The notes under the pieces: model-generated
Database searches by the model: none
Seen by the model: only the letters and a program-made list of their open reading frames with translations
What the model was told of the DNA's origin: nothing
Assembly (NCBI GenBank): GCA_902384455.1
Contig: CABMCB010000077.1
Span: 1-37,379 of the forward strand
Source: an uncultured archaeon
GTDB lineage: Archaea > Altiarchaeota > Altiarchaeia > IMC4 > SCGC-AAA252-I15
Length of the DNA stretch: 37,379 nt
Reading direction: 5' to 3'
Shown: piece after piece, positions 26,476 through 32,330 of the stretch
Layout: every line of letters begins with the position of its first letter
Position numbering within the stretch: the stretch's first letter is position 1
Position numbers and translations under genes: made by a program

Positions 26476-27180
26476 ATGGCCACAAGATTCCTAAAAATAG
26501 ACTACACAGCCCGCGTAAAAGACGGGAAAATATTCGACACCACACACAAAGAAGAAGCCCAAAAAGCAGGCATATACGACGAACACCACGTCTACCGCCC
26601 ACTACCAGTAATAGTAGGGCAAAAACAAGTCCCAGACGGAGTAGACGAAGCCCTAGCCGAAATACCCTCCGGCGAAACACGAACAATAAACGTGCCACCA
26701 GAAAAAGCATTCGGCGAAAGAAACCCCGCCCTAATACGCCTAATACCACTCAAACTATTCAAAGAAAGAAAAATAAACCCCGTACCAGGCCTACCCATAG
26801 AAGTAGACCGCATGCAAGGCCGCGTCCAAACCGTAAGCGGAGGCCGCGTCCGAGTCGACTTCAACCACGAGCTTGCCGGGAAAGAACTGGTTTACGACGT
26901 CACAGTCAAGGCGGAAGCGAAATCCGACCACGAGAAAGCCGACTTCCTAGTTGAAAGAAGCTTCAACGAAGCGAAAGACCTGTCGTTTACCTACGAGAAA
27001 GGAAAGCTGACGGTAACTTTGACGCCGGCCATAGCCCGCGACAGAAACATTTTGGCTAGGAAGGCGAATTTGGCGGCGGAGTCGTTCCTTTACCTTACGG
27101 CAAAAACCGTGACTTTCACCGAGAACTGGGAGAACCCAGAGGAAAAGAAGGCGGACGAAAAAGCGGAAACCAAAGAATAA
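26476..27180 (+). CDS. FKBP-type peptidyl-prolyl isomerase, long archaeal form
   Basis: This 234-residue protein combines an FKBP fold with the inserted IF flap seen in SlyD-like archaeal FKBPs, plus a C-terminal extension. N-terminal segments FLKIDYTARVKDGKIFDTT and PVIVGQKQVPDGVDEAL are typical, and VDFNHELAGKELVYDVTV closes the domain (about residues 130-147). The extension (about 150-234) ends in an acidic, lysine-rich tail, EEKKADEKAETKE. These proteins catalyse proline isomerisation and act as chaperones. dph2 follows after eight bases. The first 390 bases are extremely A/C-rich, then composition evens out near 26865. Confidence 0.92.
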   Translation: MATRFLKIDYTARVKDGKIFDTTHKEEAQKAGIYDEHHVYRPLPVIVGQKQVPDGVDEALAEIPSGETRTINVPPEKAFGERNPALIRLIPLKLFKERKINPVPGLPIEVDRMQGRVQTVSGGRVRVDFNHELAGKELVYDVTVKAEAKSDHEKADFLVERSFNEAKDLSFTYEKGKLTVTLTPAIARDRNILARKANLAAESFLYLTAKTVTFTENWENPEEKKADEKAETKE

Positions 27181-27188
27181 GGGTTCAT

Positions 27189-27848
27189 ATGAGGGTTGTA
27201 CACGTACCCTGCTACGCAAAAGAAAAGCTCACGCCATTCAACCACGCGCACATACTTGTCCTAAGGCTATACGGGAAAATAGGCGTCTTGACCACGGCTC
27301 AATATGCCAACCAGCTGAGTCAAGTAGTCGAGTACCTAAACCACTATCAGATACCTGCCGTGGAGGGCGGCGTAATACTAGGCTGCAACCAAAACTCGGC
27401 GGAAAAAATAGAACACCAAGTTGACGCCTACCTATACATAGGAACAGGCCGTTTCCATCCGCTTGGGGTAGCATTTAAAACCCGCAAGAAAGTTCTCCTA
27501 CTTAATCCTACGGCAAAAACCCTTGAGGAACTGTCTGAGGACGAAAAAAGCCTATGGGAAACTCAACGACGCCTCCGACTACAAAAAGCCGCAGCAGCAC
27601 AAACATTCGGCATAGCAGTATCAACACGCGACGGCCAGTTCAGCCTTGAAAACGCTTTGGAACTCAAAAAGAAGCTGGAAGCTAAAGGCAAAAAAGCATT
27701 CATCTTCGCAGGCGACTCATTCAACCCCGACTCAACGCTTGGAACAGAAGTGGACGCGTGGATAAACACTGCTTGCCCTAGAATCACCAATGACCACTTC
27801 GAAAAGGCAGTACTAAACCCGGAAGAAATCGACGAAATAATGGGTTAA
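27189..27848 (+). CDS. dph2: Dph2-like diphthamide synthesis protein lacking domain 1
   Basis: This 219-residue protein matches the second and third domains of archaeal Dph2, the radical enzyme that transfers a 3-amino-3-carboxypropyl group to elongation factor 2. Landmarks are KIGVLTTAQ (30-38), LGCNQNSA with Cys66, YIGTGRFHPLGVAFKTRKK, SFNPDSTLGTEVDAWIN and NTACPRI with Cys196. The full enzyme has about 330 residues and binds its 4Fe-4S cluster with one cysteine from each of three domains. Here the first domain and its cysteine are absent; the open frame starts eight bases after the FKBP stop, so no sequence for it exists upstream. Cys8 is a possible but unproven substitute. The stop is shared with the V4R gene (TTAA). 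Confidence 0.85.
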   Translation: MRVVHVPCYAKEKLTPFNHAHILVLRLYGKIGVLTTAQYANQLSQVVEYLNHYQIPAVEGGVILGCNQNSAEKIEHQVDAYLYIGTGRFHPLGVAFKTRKKVLLLNPTAKTLEELSEDEKSLWETQRRLRLQKAAAAQTFGIAVSTRDGQFSLENALELKKKLEAKGKKAFIFAGDSFNPDSTLGTEVDAWINTACPRITNDHFEKAVLNPEEIDEIMG

Positions 27849-29077
27849 TGCTCTCTTACCTTCGCTGTGAACTCGCAGCAACCGTCGCCGTTGGCAATGC
27901 ATAATTTCTCGTCCACTTGCCATCGTTCGCCTGTCGATTGAACCAGTAAACCCTCAATTATTCCTGCTATAAACAAATCAAGCTTCATGCCGATGTCGCT
28001 AACACCTGCGCTATACGCGGACTCTGTCAACTCAATGTTCACCCGTCCCTCAGAAACCTTCGTCGGCTTCTGAAGCAACCCCACCTTCTGCTGCTTAAAA
28101 ACATTGCGTGCAAAATCCCATACCTCCTCTTCTTTGTGTAGTCCTGCCTTCTGCGCTAACGTCTTACCACACTTTACGCCGCTGTACTTCTCAAGAATCC
28201 GATGACCCTCAGTAGCACGCATCATATAAAAAACCTCCACCTGTTCACCGGATATGTGGACGATGTCCTTCAGTTTCACTCTACCGCTTGGTTTGTTTTC
28301 AACTATGTCGCCCACCAATTTTTCGAATATCCTCTCATATTCGTCCTCGTCAGCTGAAGGTAAAGGATAATCTATCTCCCCCGTCTTTGGGTGCAACTGA
28401 TACTCAAAATACTTTTCATCTCCCCTCCGAACTTCAGTGCCTATGCACTTCATGTTGCATAACGCTTCCAAGTTTCCGCCAAGAATATTCAATGTCATAA
28501 AATCAGTAGCATCAGACCCAAGGTAAGCCAACTGTCCTTCGTCGACTCTGAACTTGATTTGTAGACCTCTTCTGTCTATAGAAACGAGAGAAACAACCCC
28601 TTGATGAACTTCGCCCCATCCCCGTGTGAGCATCTTATGAACTTCACTATTATCTACAACCTTCCAGAACAGTCCAGTCCTACCGACTAAATCGACGACT
28701 TTGCTCAACTTCATAGTCCTCAAAGCGTGATCTACGCTATGGTACCCTATCATCCTGTACATCTCACATAGTTCCCCTGTGCATCTCGGCTGAATAGAAG
28801 AAAGTGAAAACGTTTTTATGTTAGAAAAATGAACCCCAATAAAATCACCGAGAATAGGTCGAATTGGTTTGATTTTAGCATACGGGGCAGTACCTACGTT
28901 CTCCACTGCCTTAAACTTCTTGTAGAATACTTCTCCCCCCTTCTCAACCCACGGCTGCCGCAAACGTTCAATGCTGTATCCCCCATAAGGTCGCTTGAAC
29001 TCCTTGGCGTTGATGCCGCATTCTGGACAGAATTTCCACTTACTCTGAACCACACTCTCGCAGACAGGACACTTCAT
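27845..29077 (-). CDS. Zinc-ribbon protein with V4R (4-vinyl reductase) domain
   Basis: From the ATG at 29075-29077 this 410-residue protein starts with a zinc ribbon, MKCPVCESVVQSKWKFCPEC (Cys pairs at 3/6 and 17/20). A C-terminal V4R domain (about 260-410) is recognisable from ESAYSAGVSDIGMKL, the glycine helix LFIAGIIEGLLVQSTG, and the closing LCIANGDGCCEFTAKV. The middle (about 75-225) has a similar GGNLEALCN and IGTEVRRGDEKYFEY and may be a second, diverged V4R copy. V4R domains bind small molecules in XylR-like regulators, Bchl J and methanogen proteins. A TTG would extend it by 11 residues. It lies exactly between the two copies of the dph2 3' end. Confidence 0.75.
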   Translation of the reverse strand: MKCPVCESVVQSKWKFCPECGINAKEFKRPYGGYSIERLRQPWVEKGGEVFYKKFKAVENVGTAPYAKIKPIRPILGDFIGVHFSNIKTFSLSSIQPRCTGELCEMYRMIGYHSVDHALRTMKLSKVVDLVGRTGLFWKVVDNSEVHKMLTRGWGEVHQGVVSLVSIDRRGLQIKFRVDEGQLAYLGSDATDFMTLNILGGNLEALCNMKCIGTEVRRGDEKYFEYQLHPKTGEIDYPLPSADEDEYERIFEKLVGDIVENKPSGRVKLKDIVHISGEQVEVFYMMRATEGHRILEKYSGVKCGKTLAQKAGLHKEEEVWDFARNVFKQQKVGLLQKPTKVSEGRVNIELTESAYSAGVSDIGMKLDLFIAGIIEGLLVQSTGERWQVDEKLCIANGDGCCEFTAKVREH

Positions 29078-29140
29078 GGCACCAAACCAAGACCGGTCGA
29101 ATCCAGTCAAACTCTATTCAACTTAAGAACCAAGAAATAA

Positions 29141-29200
29141 AATCGAAAATTCCAAAAATCAGTATTAAACCCGCGGGAACTCGAAGAAATACTGGGTTAA
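29141..29200 (+). pseudogene. Displaced second copy of the dph2 3' end
   Basis: On the plus strand, codons from 29141 read NRKFQKSVLNPRELEEILG then TAA (29198-29200). The last 19 residues of Dph2 at 27789-27845 read NDHFEKAVLNPEEIDEIMG then TAA. Over the last 14 codons, 34 of 42 bases are identical by hand count, and most changes are conservative (D/E, I/L, M/L). Just upstream, ccaaga at 29130-29135 parallels cctaga of the Dph2 CPRI region, but with a one-base shift, so the copy is broken. No start or rest of the gene precedes it. It sits in the upstream region of the V4R gene. Confidence 0.7.
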
Positions 29201-29227
29201 GTCGGCAGAACCCGGATACGCAGGCGA

Positions 29228-29632
29228 TTATTGCGGCATATTTCTACCGTCTACCCACCAACTGGGCGGATTTTTAGCCTGATAAAGAAGTGTGCGCACT
29301 CCTCCGCCGGGAGCGAGCACCACATAAGGCTCCTTCCCCTCATAGAACGCTCTTGAAGCATCAGAATCCGAGTCATCGTATCTGTGGATTCTGTCTCGGC
29401 CGCTTTGAATAATGCGGACAAGTTCTACTGCGTCGCTGATGGGGAGCCTATTCTGGTGTGCCGTGTCGAAAGTTACTGCCACCAAAGTTGTGTCGCCTTT
29501 CCGCGTAACCTGAGTTTCGCCGATAGCCAGAAATCCTCCAGTGACAAGCCGGTCGACTAATGACTCGACCCTCTGCTCTATGGGTCGTCCGCCTTCTGTG
29601 CTGTCCCTAACTCTGGGCATCTGGTACACCAT
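29228..29632 (-). CDS. Hypothetical 134-residue protein
   Basis: I do not recognise this protein. It is soluble, with an amphipathic N-terminal helix (IEQRVESLVDRLVTGGFL), a beta stretch (TTLVAVTFDTAH), a helix (SDAVELVRIIQSGRDRIHRY) and a glycine-rich turn APGGGVRTLLYQ near the end. It resembles no enzyme motif. A second ATG lies four codons in. A TATA-like element (ggtatttac on the minus strand, about 29658-29668) lies about 31 bases upstream. It diverges from the metalloprotease-like gene and belongs to the accessory cluster. Confidence 0.55.
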   Translation of the reverse strand: MVYQMPRVRDSTEGGRPIEQRVESLVDRLVTGGFLAIGETQVTRKGDTTLVAVTFDTAHQNRLPISDAVELVRIIQSGRDRIHRYDDSDSDASRAFYEGKEPYVVLAPGGGVRTLLYQAKNPPSWWVDGRNMPQ

Positions 29633-29705
29633 AGAGTAAAAAAGGGGAAAGAGCCTGTAAATACCTTTGCAGCGATATTAATCCGCAGACTTCCCGGAGT
29701 AATGT

Positions 29706-31091
29706 ATGCCTGCTAATCCATCAGTCGCCCGCCGAGTGCAAGAGCACCTGCGCGATGTGGCCCTTCCTCAGCCGCAGGATTTGGCGGGCGTCGGATATGA
29801 GGCGGCTGTTCGCCCTCTTTTTGAGTTGCGTGATTGCCTGGAGGGGGAGACCGGATTAAAAGGTTATGCTGTCGTTTCCCGGCTCATTACTGCGGACGAT
29901 GAAGCCGCTACGAGGTATCAGGAGCGGCTCAAGAGGATGCGACGTAGGATGTGGTTTAACGCGGGCTTCAAGCGGGAAGAAGCTTACGACCTTGCCGACG
30001 TGGAGGAAGAAGTCGGAGCACTTGCATTAATCAAGATTTTGGCGCAGGAAGACGGAGTTGAGCCAAAGAAATTCTTGGGCTCATACCTCAAGGAACACAG
30101 GATACAAGGACCACTCAAGTTGATAAGTCCCGGCTTCTTCACGCAATACCAGCAGAAACTCATCCATGAAGAAGCCAGAAACATATCGGCTCGGCTGCTT
30201 CCAGACGAACCCATTAATGCCCAGCTGGATTTCGCAGACGAAACGCTAGAAGGATCAACTGCTGCCATGGCAAGAAACGCGTGGCTTGATTTACCCGGAG
30301 AATCCCAAACAGGAGTTATTGCAATAATCTCAGGATTCGCCTCGGCAGCAGCAGGAATAATCGCCGCAAAAAACGGGCTGGAAAAGGCCCCCCTCTCAGG
30401 TCTTACGTTTGCGGCTTGCTTCCCCGGCCTAACGGCAGCCTACATGAACTACCGTCGCTCGTTTCCCTTCTGCTACTACATAGGAAGAGACGTGACAAGA
30501 TTAGGCCGCCAAAGCCCTCATGAAATATTCCGCTTCAACGCCACCCACGAAGCTGCTCACAGACTAATAGAAGCACACCCGGAAACATACCCACACAACC
30601 AAACGCTATGGCTGCCTCAAGCCGCAGCGGCTTTACGCATGTACGAAATAAATCACGGCGCAGAAAACACGCAGCAAGCAGACGACTTACACCTTGGCAT
30701 GCTACTAACGGAAGACATACAAGACCCTCAAGAAAGAGAACAAAAAATAACAGAAGCATCCAAACAAAAAACATTCCACTGGAAAACAAAAAGCTTAAGA
30801 GAAATCCTAACCCACACAACAGCCACAACACGCGACGCAATAGGCCGCAACATAGACGCTGCAGCAGACTACTTGTCTTCTGAAACACTTCACCGCGAAG
30901 CTACTTCAACCTACCGATACGGGGCTATTATTGCCGGAGTCGCTTTGGAGGTCGGATGGCAGATTGCTGAACAAAGAGGCGGCGGGAAAAAAGAGGCCGT
31001 CGACTTGGCCTGGGAGTATGTCAGAAGGAGAGCTCAAGGAGAAGACCCAATTAACCTCGAATCAACACTTAGAAGCAGAGGGCAAATCTAA
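29706..31091 (+). CDS. Membrane protein with HExxH zinc-peptidase motif
   Basis: I recognise no family for this 461-residue protein. It has a soluble helical N-terminal part (to about 195), two adjacent hydrophobic segments (about 203-221 and 229-247), then the sequence NATHEAAHRLIEAHPE with the zinc-protease signature HEAAH (281-285). Acidic residues about 35-45 positions later (Glu320, Asp326, Asp327) could supply a third ligand. The C-terminal region is helical and ends QRGGGKKEAVDLAWEYVRRR. A GGAG lies six bases before the ATG. It may be a membrane metallopeptidase, but HExxH also occurs by chance. Its stop is shared with the converging gene (CTAA). Confidence 0.65.
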   Translation: MPANPSVARRVQEHLRDVALPQPQDLAGVGYEAAVRPLFELRDCLEGETGLKGYAVVSRLITADDEAATRYQERLKRMRRRMWFNAGFKREEAYDLADVEEEVGALALIKILAQEDGVEPKKFLGSYLKEHRIQGPLKLISPGFFTQYQQKLIHEEARNISARLLPDEPINAQLDFADETLEGSTAAMARNAWLDLPGESQTGVIAIISGFASAAAGIIAAKNGLEKAPLSGLTFAACFPGLTAAYMNYRRSFPFCYYIGRDVTRLGRQSPHEIFRFNATHEAAHRLIEAHPETYPHNQTLWLPQAAAALRMYEINHGAENTQQADDLHLGMLLTEDIQDPQEREQKITEASKQKTFHWKTKSLREILTHTTATTRDAIGRNIDAAADYLSSETLHREATSTYRYGAIIAGVALEVGWQIAEQRGGGKKEAVDLAWEYVRRRAQGEDPINLESTLRSRGQI

Positions 31092-31855
31092 CCGTATACT
31101 CCCGCTGTCGCCTTCAAGTCGTTTCTTGCTTGAAGTATAATGTGTTTTAAGCCTGTTGCTTTGAATTCCTCCAATAAGTCTCCGAAGAATCTTGAGGCTG
31201 GTTCGTCTCCTATGAAATGCCAGGGGTGCGGCTTGAAACCCAGGATGCAGCGTTGCACAAGCTCCAAGTCGTGGCGAGACTCCCAAGGGTGCGCGGGAGT
31301 CAAACACACAGGCAAATAAAGATTCACCGGTTTCCCAGCGGCCTCTGAAAGAGTTTTTCGAACGTGTGTTGTGCCGCCGCTTTTTGCGCCTGAACCGAAC
31401 AGGGGGTCGTCTGAAACCAAATCGGACTTCTCCACCCTAAGGTTCACAGGCCTGTTAACGCAAGGAATCATGTCTATGTCGCTAACTAAGCTAACGTCAA
31501 TCACCTTCTGGGGTTGGACGACGCCATACGATTTCCCAGTGAAGCTCCCAAATAAAATAAATCCGGAAAGAGCGCCTGAAACGTCAGAACCCTCGCCCTT
31601 AAGAGCCGTATAGCCCCTATGAAGCGCCTCCGCGATGCGAGCACGCTCAGAAAGCATGCCCTTAACGTCCCATTCATCCCCGTCAGAAAGCGCAACACGA
31701 CCCTTCCCGGAGACAACGCCAGATTTCCTCTCGCTCTCTTTCGCCCGCCTATATAATGCAGGCCACAAATTAGGAGGAGTATCAGCTGCCGTTTCGATGA
31801 TTTTTTCAACAGGTTCGGGTATACGCCTGCCGTTTCTCTCCTGGTGAGTGGTCAT
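31088..31855 (-). CDS. Nucleotidyltransferase-like protein
   Basis: This 255-residue protein contains a pattern resembling the nucleotidyltransferase core: FILFGSFTGKS (about 98-108) followed about 20 residues later by SDIDMI (about 129-134), i.e. GS then DxD. This is the metal-binding arrangement of the pol-beta/MNT superfamily, which includes antitoxins, CCA-adding enzymes and aminoglycoside transferases. The N-terminal 90 residues are helical and polar; the C-terminal part contains many histidines and tryptophans (FKPHPWHFIGDEP). The target is unknown, and the long loop between GS and DxD makes the assignment tentative. It converges with the HExxH gene. Confidence 0.55.
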   Translation of the reverse strand: MTTHQERNGRRIPEPVEKIIETAADTPPNLWPALYRRAKESERKSGVVSGKGRVALSDGDEWDVKGMLSERARIAEALHRGYTALKGEGSDVSGALSGFILFGSFTGKSYGVVQPQKVIDVSLVSDIDMIPCVNRPVNLRVEKSDLVSDDPLFGSGAKSGGTTHVRKTLSEAAGKPVNLYLPVCLTPAHPWESRHDLELVQRCILGFKPHPWHFIGDEPASRFFGDLLEEFKATGLKHIILQARNDLKATAGVYG

Positions 31856-31877
31856 CCGCTTGAGTGCGTTTCGCCGG

Positions 31878-32330
31878 CTATAATTCTATCCCGTGCGCGT
31901 CTTTGACTACGTTTAGGACGAGCATCGTGTATGTTCTTTTGACGTGGCGCATGCAGAGGCTTCGTTTGACGAAGTCGTTTAGGCTTTCTCTGTCCTTGAA
32001 TTTGCCGACAATAAGTGCGTCGTATTCGCCTGTGACGTCGTAGACTGTGGTGATAAGCGGTTCTTGGGCGAGCTTCTGCTCGACTTCCGGCAGATGGCCT
32101 CCCTCAACCACTACGCCTATTACCGCTACGAGGTCGTATCCTAGTTTGCTGTAGTCTATGTTGACTATGAATCCTTTGATTACGCCTTCTTCCTTCAGCT
32201 TGTTTACGCGGTTGTATACGGTGCCTTCTGCGACGTGTAGTTTGTCAGCTATTTCGCGGTAGCTTTGGCGTGAGTTCGCTTTAAGCTCCTGTAGTATGCT
32301 GATGTCGAGTTCGTCGATTTTTGAACTCAT
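31878..32330 (-). CDS. Lrp/AsnC-family transcriptional regulator
   Basis: This 150-residue protein has the standard layout: a winged helix at 1-60 (DELDISILQELKANSRQSYREIADKLHVAEGTVYNRVNKLKE), then a RAM ligand-binding domain with YDLVAVIGVVVEGG and TVYDVTGEYDALIVGKF. Such regulators bind palindromic sites as dimers or octamers and respond to amino acids. A TATA element (plus positions 32353-32360) lies 27 bases upstream. A perfect inverted repeat just beyond it, shared with nadE, is the obvious candidate operator. Confidence 0.92.
   Translation of the reverse strand: MSSKIDELDISILQELKANSRQSYREIADKLHVAEGTVYNRVNKLKEEGVIKGFIVNIDYSKLGYDLVAVIGVVVEGGHLPEVEQKLAQEPLITTVYDVTGEYDALIVGKFKDRESLNDFVKRSLCMRHVKRTYTMLVLNVVKDAHGIEL

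Follow-up and report, generated by a model that had tools for sequence, protein, structure and literature searches.

The stretch of DNA analyzed here, hereafter the window, comprises the 37,379 nucleotides (nt) of contig CABMCB010000077.1 from an uncultured archaeon of the Altiarchaeota, and its feature of interest is a second copy of the 3' end of the diphthamide biosynthesis gene dph2. The last 51 nt of dph2 (27798-27848, copy A) are repeated on the same strand at 29150-29200 (copy B), with 41 of 51 positions identical, no gaps, and a stop codon ending each copy. The interval between the copies (27849-29149) contains only a gene encoding a V4R-domain protein and its probable promoter. Insertion of this gene at the dph2 3' end, as an earlier note on this DNA had proposed, is well supported. 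The features of the region are the following:

27189..27848, plus strand: C-terminal part of dph2, encoding Dph2 domains 2 and 3 (Pfam PF01866, profile positions 66-289 of 302, E=1.5e-41)
27798..27848, plus strand: repeat copy A, the functional dph2 3' end
27845..29077, minus strand: gene encoding a zinc ribbon (E=1e-4) and a V4R domain (E=6e-7, just below the Pfam cut-off) with an MsvR-like C-terminus, convergent with dph2
29111..29149, minus strand: probable V4R promoter, with a TATA-like ATTTTATTTC at about 29134-29143, as read from the sequence
29150..29200, plus strand: repeat copy B, an orphan dph2 3' end outside any open reading frame (ORF), with a same-frame TAA at 29138-29140 and no start codon

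The repeated dph2 3' end and the V4R gene

The duplication is real, as claimed in the earlier note. Copies A and B align locally with a score of 31, compared with 16 for the best of 300 dinucleotide shuffles (4 kb) and 17 for the second-best site in the window, and a self-BLAST of the complete window returns the pair with E=1.1e-6. The C-terminus of Dph2 reads NDHFEKAVLNPEEIDEIMG-stop, and the plus strand at 29141-29200 translates as NRKFQKSVLNPRELEEILG-stop; 6 of 16 residues differ between the copies, and both terminate in GGGTTAA, which includes the dph2 stop codon. The similarity has sharp edges, a Phe codon on the left and TAA on the right. In the three codons left of the repeat (NDH versus NRK) similarity is at chance level, and the NTACPR motif, strongly conserved just upstream in dph2, is missing from copy B, which marks the left edge as a true breakpoint. 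Because the codon in frame before AAT (29141) is TAA and a start codon is lacking, copy B is a remnant and not a gene. The dph2 gene itself stays intact, completed by copy A.

We also considered whether the similarity is due to chance or to an unrelated but conserved element by the V4R promoter, which is hardly credible. The small size of the repeat is the sole point in favor of this reading, which is refuted by the alignment score together with the shared frame and stop codon; moreover, no additional copies of the dph2 tail were identified elsewhere in the genome, and none accompanies any of the other V4R genes examined. Since the longest identical stretch common to both copies is only ~8 nt, an assembly artifact joined through the repeat is unlikely. 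In 24 related loci, the DNA following dph2 was also searched for tail duplications, with no conspicuous hit (scores 9-15).

The two copies exactly bracket the V4R gene, whose stop codon (27847-27845) overlaps that of dph2 in TTAA; both facts had been described correctly before. The gene starts with ATG at 29077 or alternatively with TTG at 29110, and its C-terminus is complete in comparison with relatives. Similar to MsvR-type archaeal V4R proteins, the C-terminal V4R region matches MsvR, albeit weakly (E=5e-9). Different from these proteins, the window protein has an N-terminal zinc ribbon, the MsvR match is limited to residues 293-404, and its score of 36 is far below the NCBIfam cut-off of 220. 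Other families of the order have relatives of the V4R gene and the same genome has one paralog (33%, on contig C71), but none was found in other family members. In the V4R tree the window gene is placed beside this paralog with moderate support and on a very long branch, so that the donor is not readable from the tree. Searches of viral contigs and plasmids, and of solved structures, identified no relatives.

The dph2-lrp slot in related genomes

The usual gene order in the family is FKBP and dph2, followed by the convergent genes lrp and nadE. In four of seven family relatives (G001, G002, G004, and G007), dph2 directly faces lrp, the arrangement ranging from a slight overlap to a distance of ~120 bases. 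G006 has no lrp after dph2 and keeps nadE, G003 has another neighbor, and a different 1.2-kb gene occupies the slot in G005. No V4R gene or second dph2 end is present at this place in any family relative examined. In the window, the slot between dph2 and lrp spans 4.0 kb and contains, besides V4R and copy B, three ORFs of 134, 461, and 255 amino acids (aa):

29228..29632, minus strand: 134-aa ORF, convergent towards copy B (no Pfam, NCBIfam, PHROGs, or PADLOC match)
29706..31091, plus strand: 461-aa ORF with a HEAAH (HExxH) motif, read from its sequence, and a hydrophobic segment
31088..31855, minus strand: 255-aa ORF
31878..32330, minus strand: lrp/AsnC regulator, the ancestral convergent neighbor of dph2 in the family

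Because relatives have the dph2-lrp junction and no V4R gene there, V4R and the three ORFs at 29228-31855 represent insertions into the slot. Their joint arrival was considered and discarded; copy B sits in the middle of the slot and not adjacent to lrp, which implies at least two insertion events. The relatives in which dph2 directly faces lrp are of other genera and also lack the second insertion (29228-31855). The earlier note had suggested looking for an empty site in which dph2 is directly followed by a homolog of the 29228-29632 gene. No such site was found; that gene has no relatives in 30 genomes, and the ancestral neighbor is lrp. The same holds for the other two ORFs, which have no relatives in these genomes, and no protein family was matched by the ORFs neighboring V4R. 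The 461-aa ORF possibly encodes a membrane metallopeptidase, judging from its motif and hydrophobic segment. The unrelated gene at this place in G005 suggests that the dph2-lrp junction is a favored insertion site. That gene (L040, 5042-6220, with dph2 on the plus strand) has a twin-arginine-like start and a thioredoxin-like CGPCK near the C-terminus.

Possible routes of insertion

We tentatively favor, at somewhat less than an even chance, the explanation that V4R and its promoter were inserted at the dph2 3' end via one-sided homologous capture, that is, homology-facilitated illegitimate recombination, which has been documented in bacteria (PMC3240628). On the incoming DNA, dph2 and V4R would have been convergent, with their stop codons overlapping. 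A crossover within dph2 might then have been followed by illegitimate joining immediately to the left of the former dph2 tail, which would leave one complete dph2 ending in copy A and the old 51-base end (copy B) displaced beyond the insert as non-coding DNA. The donor, the direction, and the recombination route are those that we infer. If different intergenic DNA had originally lain behind each copy, the repeat would be expected to end on the right at the stop codon, which favors either capture or an attachment site; the lack of an integrase, the presence of only one gene, and the abutting stop codons favor capture. The left junction lies within dph2 and the right junction (29149/29150) is abrupt within the former dph2. 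In this order, convergent neighboring genes often overlap the end of dph2 (G004, G012, G018, G019, and G022), which makes it plausible that the stops of dph2 and V4R overlapped in a donor. Capture is further supported by the third codon positions of V4R and two other inserted ORFs, which are near balance in A+C (42-52%; 64% in the 461-aa ORF), unlike those of the neighboring genes fkbp, dph2, lrp, and glnA (70-87%). The conservative substitutions between the copies and their intergenus-like divergence, both described below, also speak for it.

Several observations weigh against capture. None of the 30 relatives has dph2 and V4R side by side, and one-sided capture has been described mainly in bacteria, with no archaeal report found. 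Of the ten differences between the copies, two are synonymous and eight alter the protein, which is the neutral proportion, as for drift after a local duplication. In addition, A or C occupies 76% of third positions in both copies, exceeding the dph2 tails of all 24 relatives (maximum 71%), and this shared A/C-rich codon style suggests that both may stem from the same genome or from a very near donor.

A possible but rather unlikely alternative is that the last 51 bases of the organism's own dph2 were copied, by break repair or template switching, when V4R entered the slot, and that the outer copy drifted afterwards. Besides the neutral proportion of differences and the common codon style, which favors either such a duplication or a very near donor, this would agree with A and B being nearer each other than to any relative compared. 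It would, however, turn the right edge exactly at the stop codon into a coincidence, and the 20% divergence without an indel would mean long survival of useless DNA in a compact genome. The substitutions are also more conservative than expected by chance (P about 0.01-0.02), in agreement with the earlier note: mutants of A with ten random substitutions resemble A and the family profile less than copy B does (P about 0.007-0.018), which suggests that the copies may have had some coding history. The family-typical residue is found in A at two sites (Q and R in B) and in B at two others (I and M in A), so neither copy is simply a decayed form of the other.

As to the donor, the suggested origin of the incoming copy in a related species is not established. 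The divergence between A and B equals that of dph2 tails from different genera, and the orthologous tails of G017 and G018 share 78.6% identity across 42 nt, their differences being distributed over codon positions as in A and B, whereas the codon style indicates an origin in this very genome or in a very near donor. The evidence thus points two ways, and 51 bases are too few to decide between them.

The repeat at a gene end could also be what is left of an eroded integrase-type element that attached at the 3' end of dph2 (A as attL, B as attR), restored the gene, and lost everything except V4R. Direct repeats flank the insert and copy A completes dph2, as in such elements; the two repeats share no identical core beyond the run of ~8 nt, which erosion could explain. 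A replaced gene end with conservative change is known from e14 in icd of Escherichia coli (PMC6379469), and five phage-integrase-domain proteins are encoded elsewhere in the genome, on other contigs. The loci around these integrase-domain genes, however, contain no dph2-tail-like sequence. As the earlier note had remarked, no integrase is visible on the 37-kb contig, and profile searches of the ORFs at 27849-31877 found none. The element would have been reduced to a single 1.3-kb gene abutting copy A without a spare base, and the 15 other V4R genes have no flanking direct repeats above shuffles, so we consider this origin unlikely. Regarding transposons, no inverted repeats were found at the insert ends, and 51 nt far exceeds usual transposon target-site duplications.

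It is established that mobile elements can reside in the 3' ends of protein-coding genes, and one of the known targets is an archaeal diphthamide biosynthesis gene (PMC6563490). Similar to e14/icd and the thaumarchaeal elements of that study, the gene end is restored at the junction and the former end now lies beyond the insert, the repeat is of usual length, and the target is 3'-distal in a gene type on the published target list. The present case differs in the absence of an integrase, the one-gene insert, the 20% divergence of the copies, and the fact that no near relative shows an empty site. Homology-facilitated illegitimate recombination in Acinetobacter, Streptococcus, and Pseudomonas resembles the locus in its one-sided homology anchor, the old gene part lying downstream, and an integrase being unnecessary. 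It has also been put forward to account for displaced immunity genes of Vibrio cholerae, whose gene arrays would have captured new genes with the old ones displaced downstream (PMC5361080). Different from these bacterial cases, the present one is archaeal and without a donor genome.

The locus is a modest, well-preserved example of a familiar type of scar and no new kind of element. It records in readable form the acquisition of a gene by an uncultured archaeal lineage, at a convergent dph2/lrp junction that takes up foreign genes, and integrase-free capture, if proven, would be an archaeal case of a mechanism known mainly from bacteria. It is very improbable that this reflects a general route in the archaeal class, by which single genes such as V4R regulators enter the ends of housekeeping genes as minimal promoter-to-stop cassettes through homology-anchored, recombinase-free capture and leave scars.

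Strand asymmetry and the split Dph2

The genome has a strong local A+C versus G+T asymmetry between strands (window 1-37379, L077, and L096), in tracts that switch sign, sometimes within a gene. Third positions of fkbp contain A56 C40 G4 T0 in its first half and A24 C34 G32 T10 in its second, with the switch near 26845, and T is found at 1% of third positions in mthfr and glnA. The standard deviation of the per-gene third-position A+C fraction is 0.158 (41 genes), compared with 0.069 for 101 genes of relatives. GC content is ~50% throughout, and seemingly lineage-specific genes are near A+C balance. This asymmetry looks like the result of a strand-specific mutational process. The contig begins with an A/C-rich tandem-like repeat at 1-142 (2-64 versus 80-142, 73% identical), which is the likely reason for the assembly break.

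Dph2 is split in this genome, with domains 2 and 3 encoded in the window and domain 1, which includes YGACD, by a separate gene on another contig:

G000:C19:5469-5735 (L096), minus strand: Dph2 domain 1, an 88-aa gene adjoining an aIF2/5B-like gene

Split Dph1/2 is known from several DPANN groups and Altiarchaeota (PMC6349945), and the short form of Dph2 is present throughout the class.
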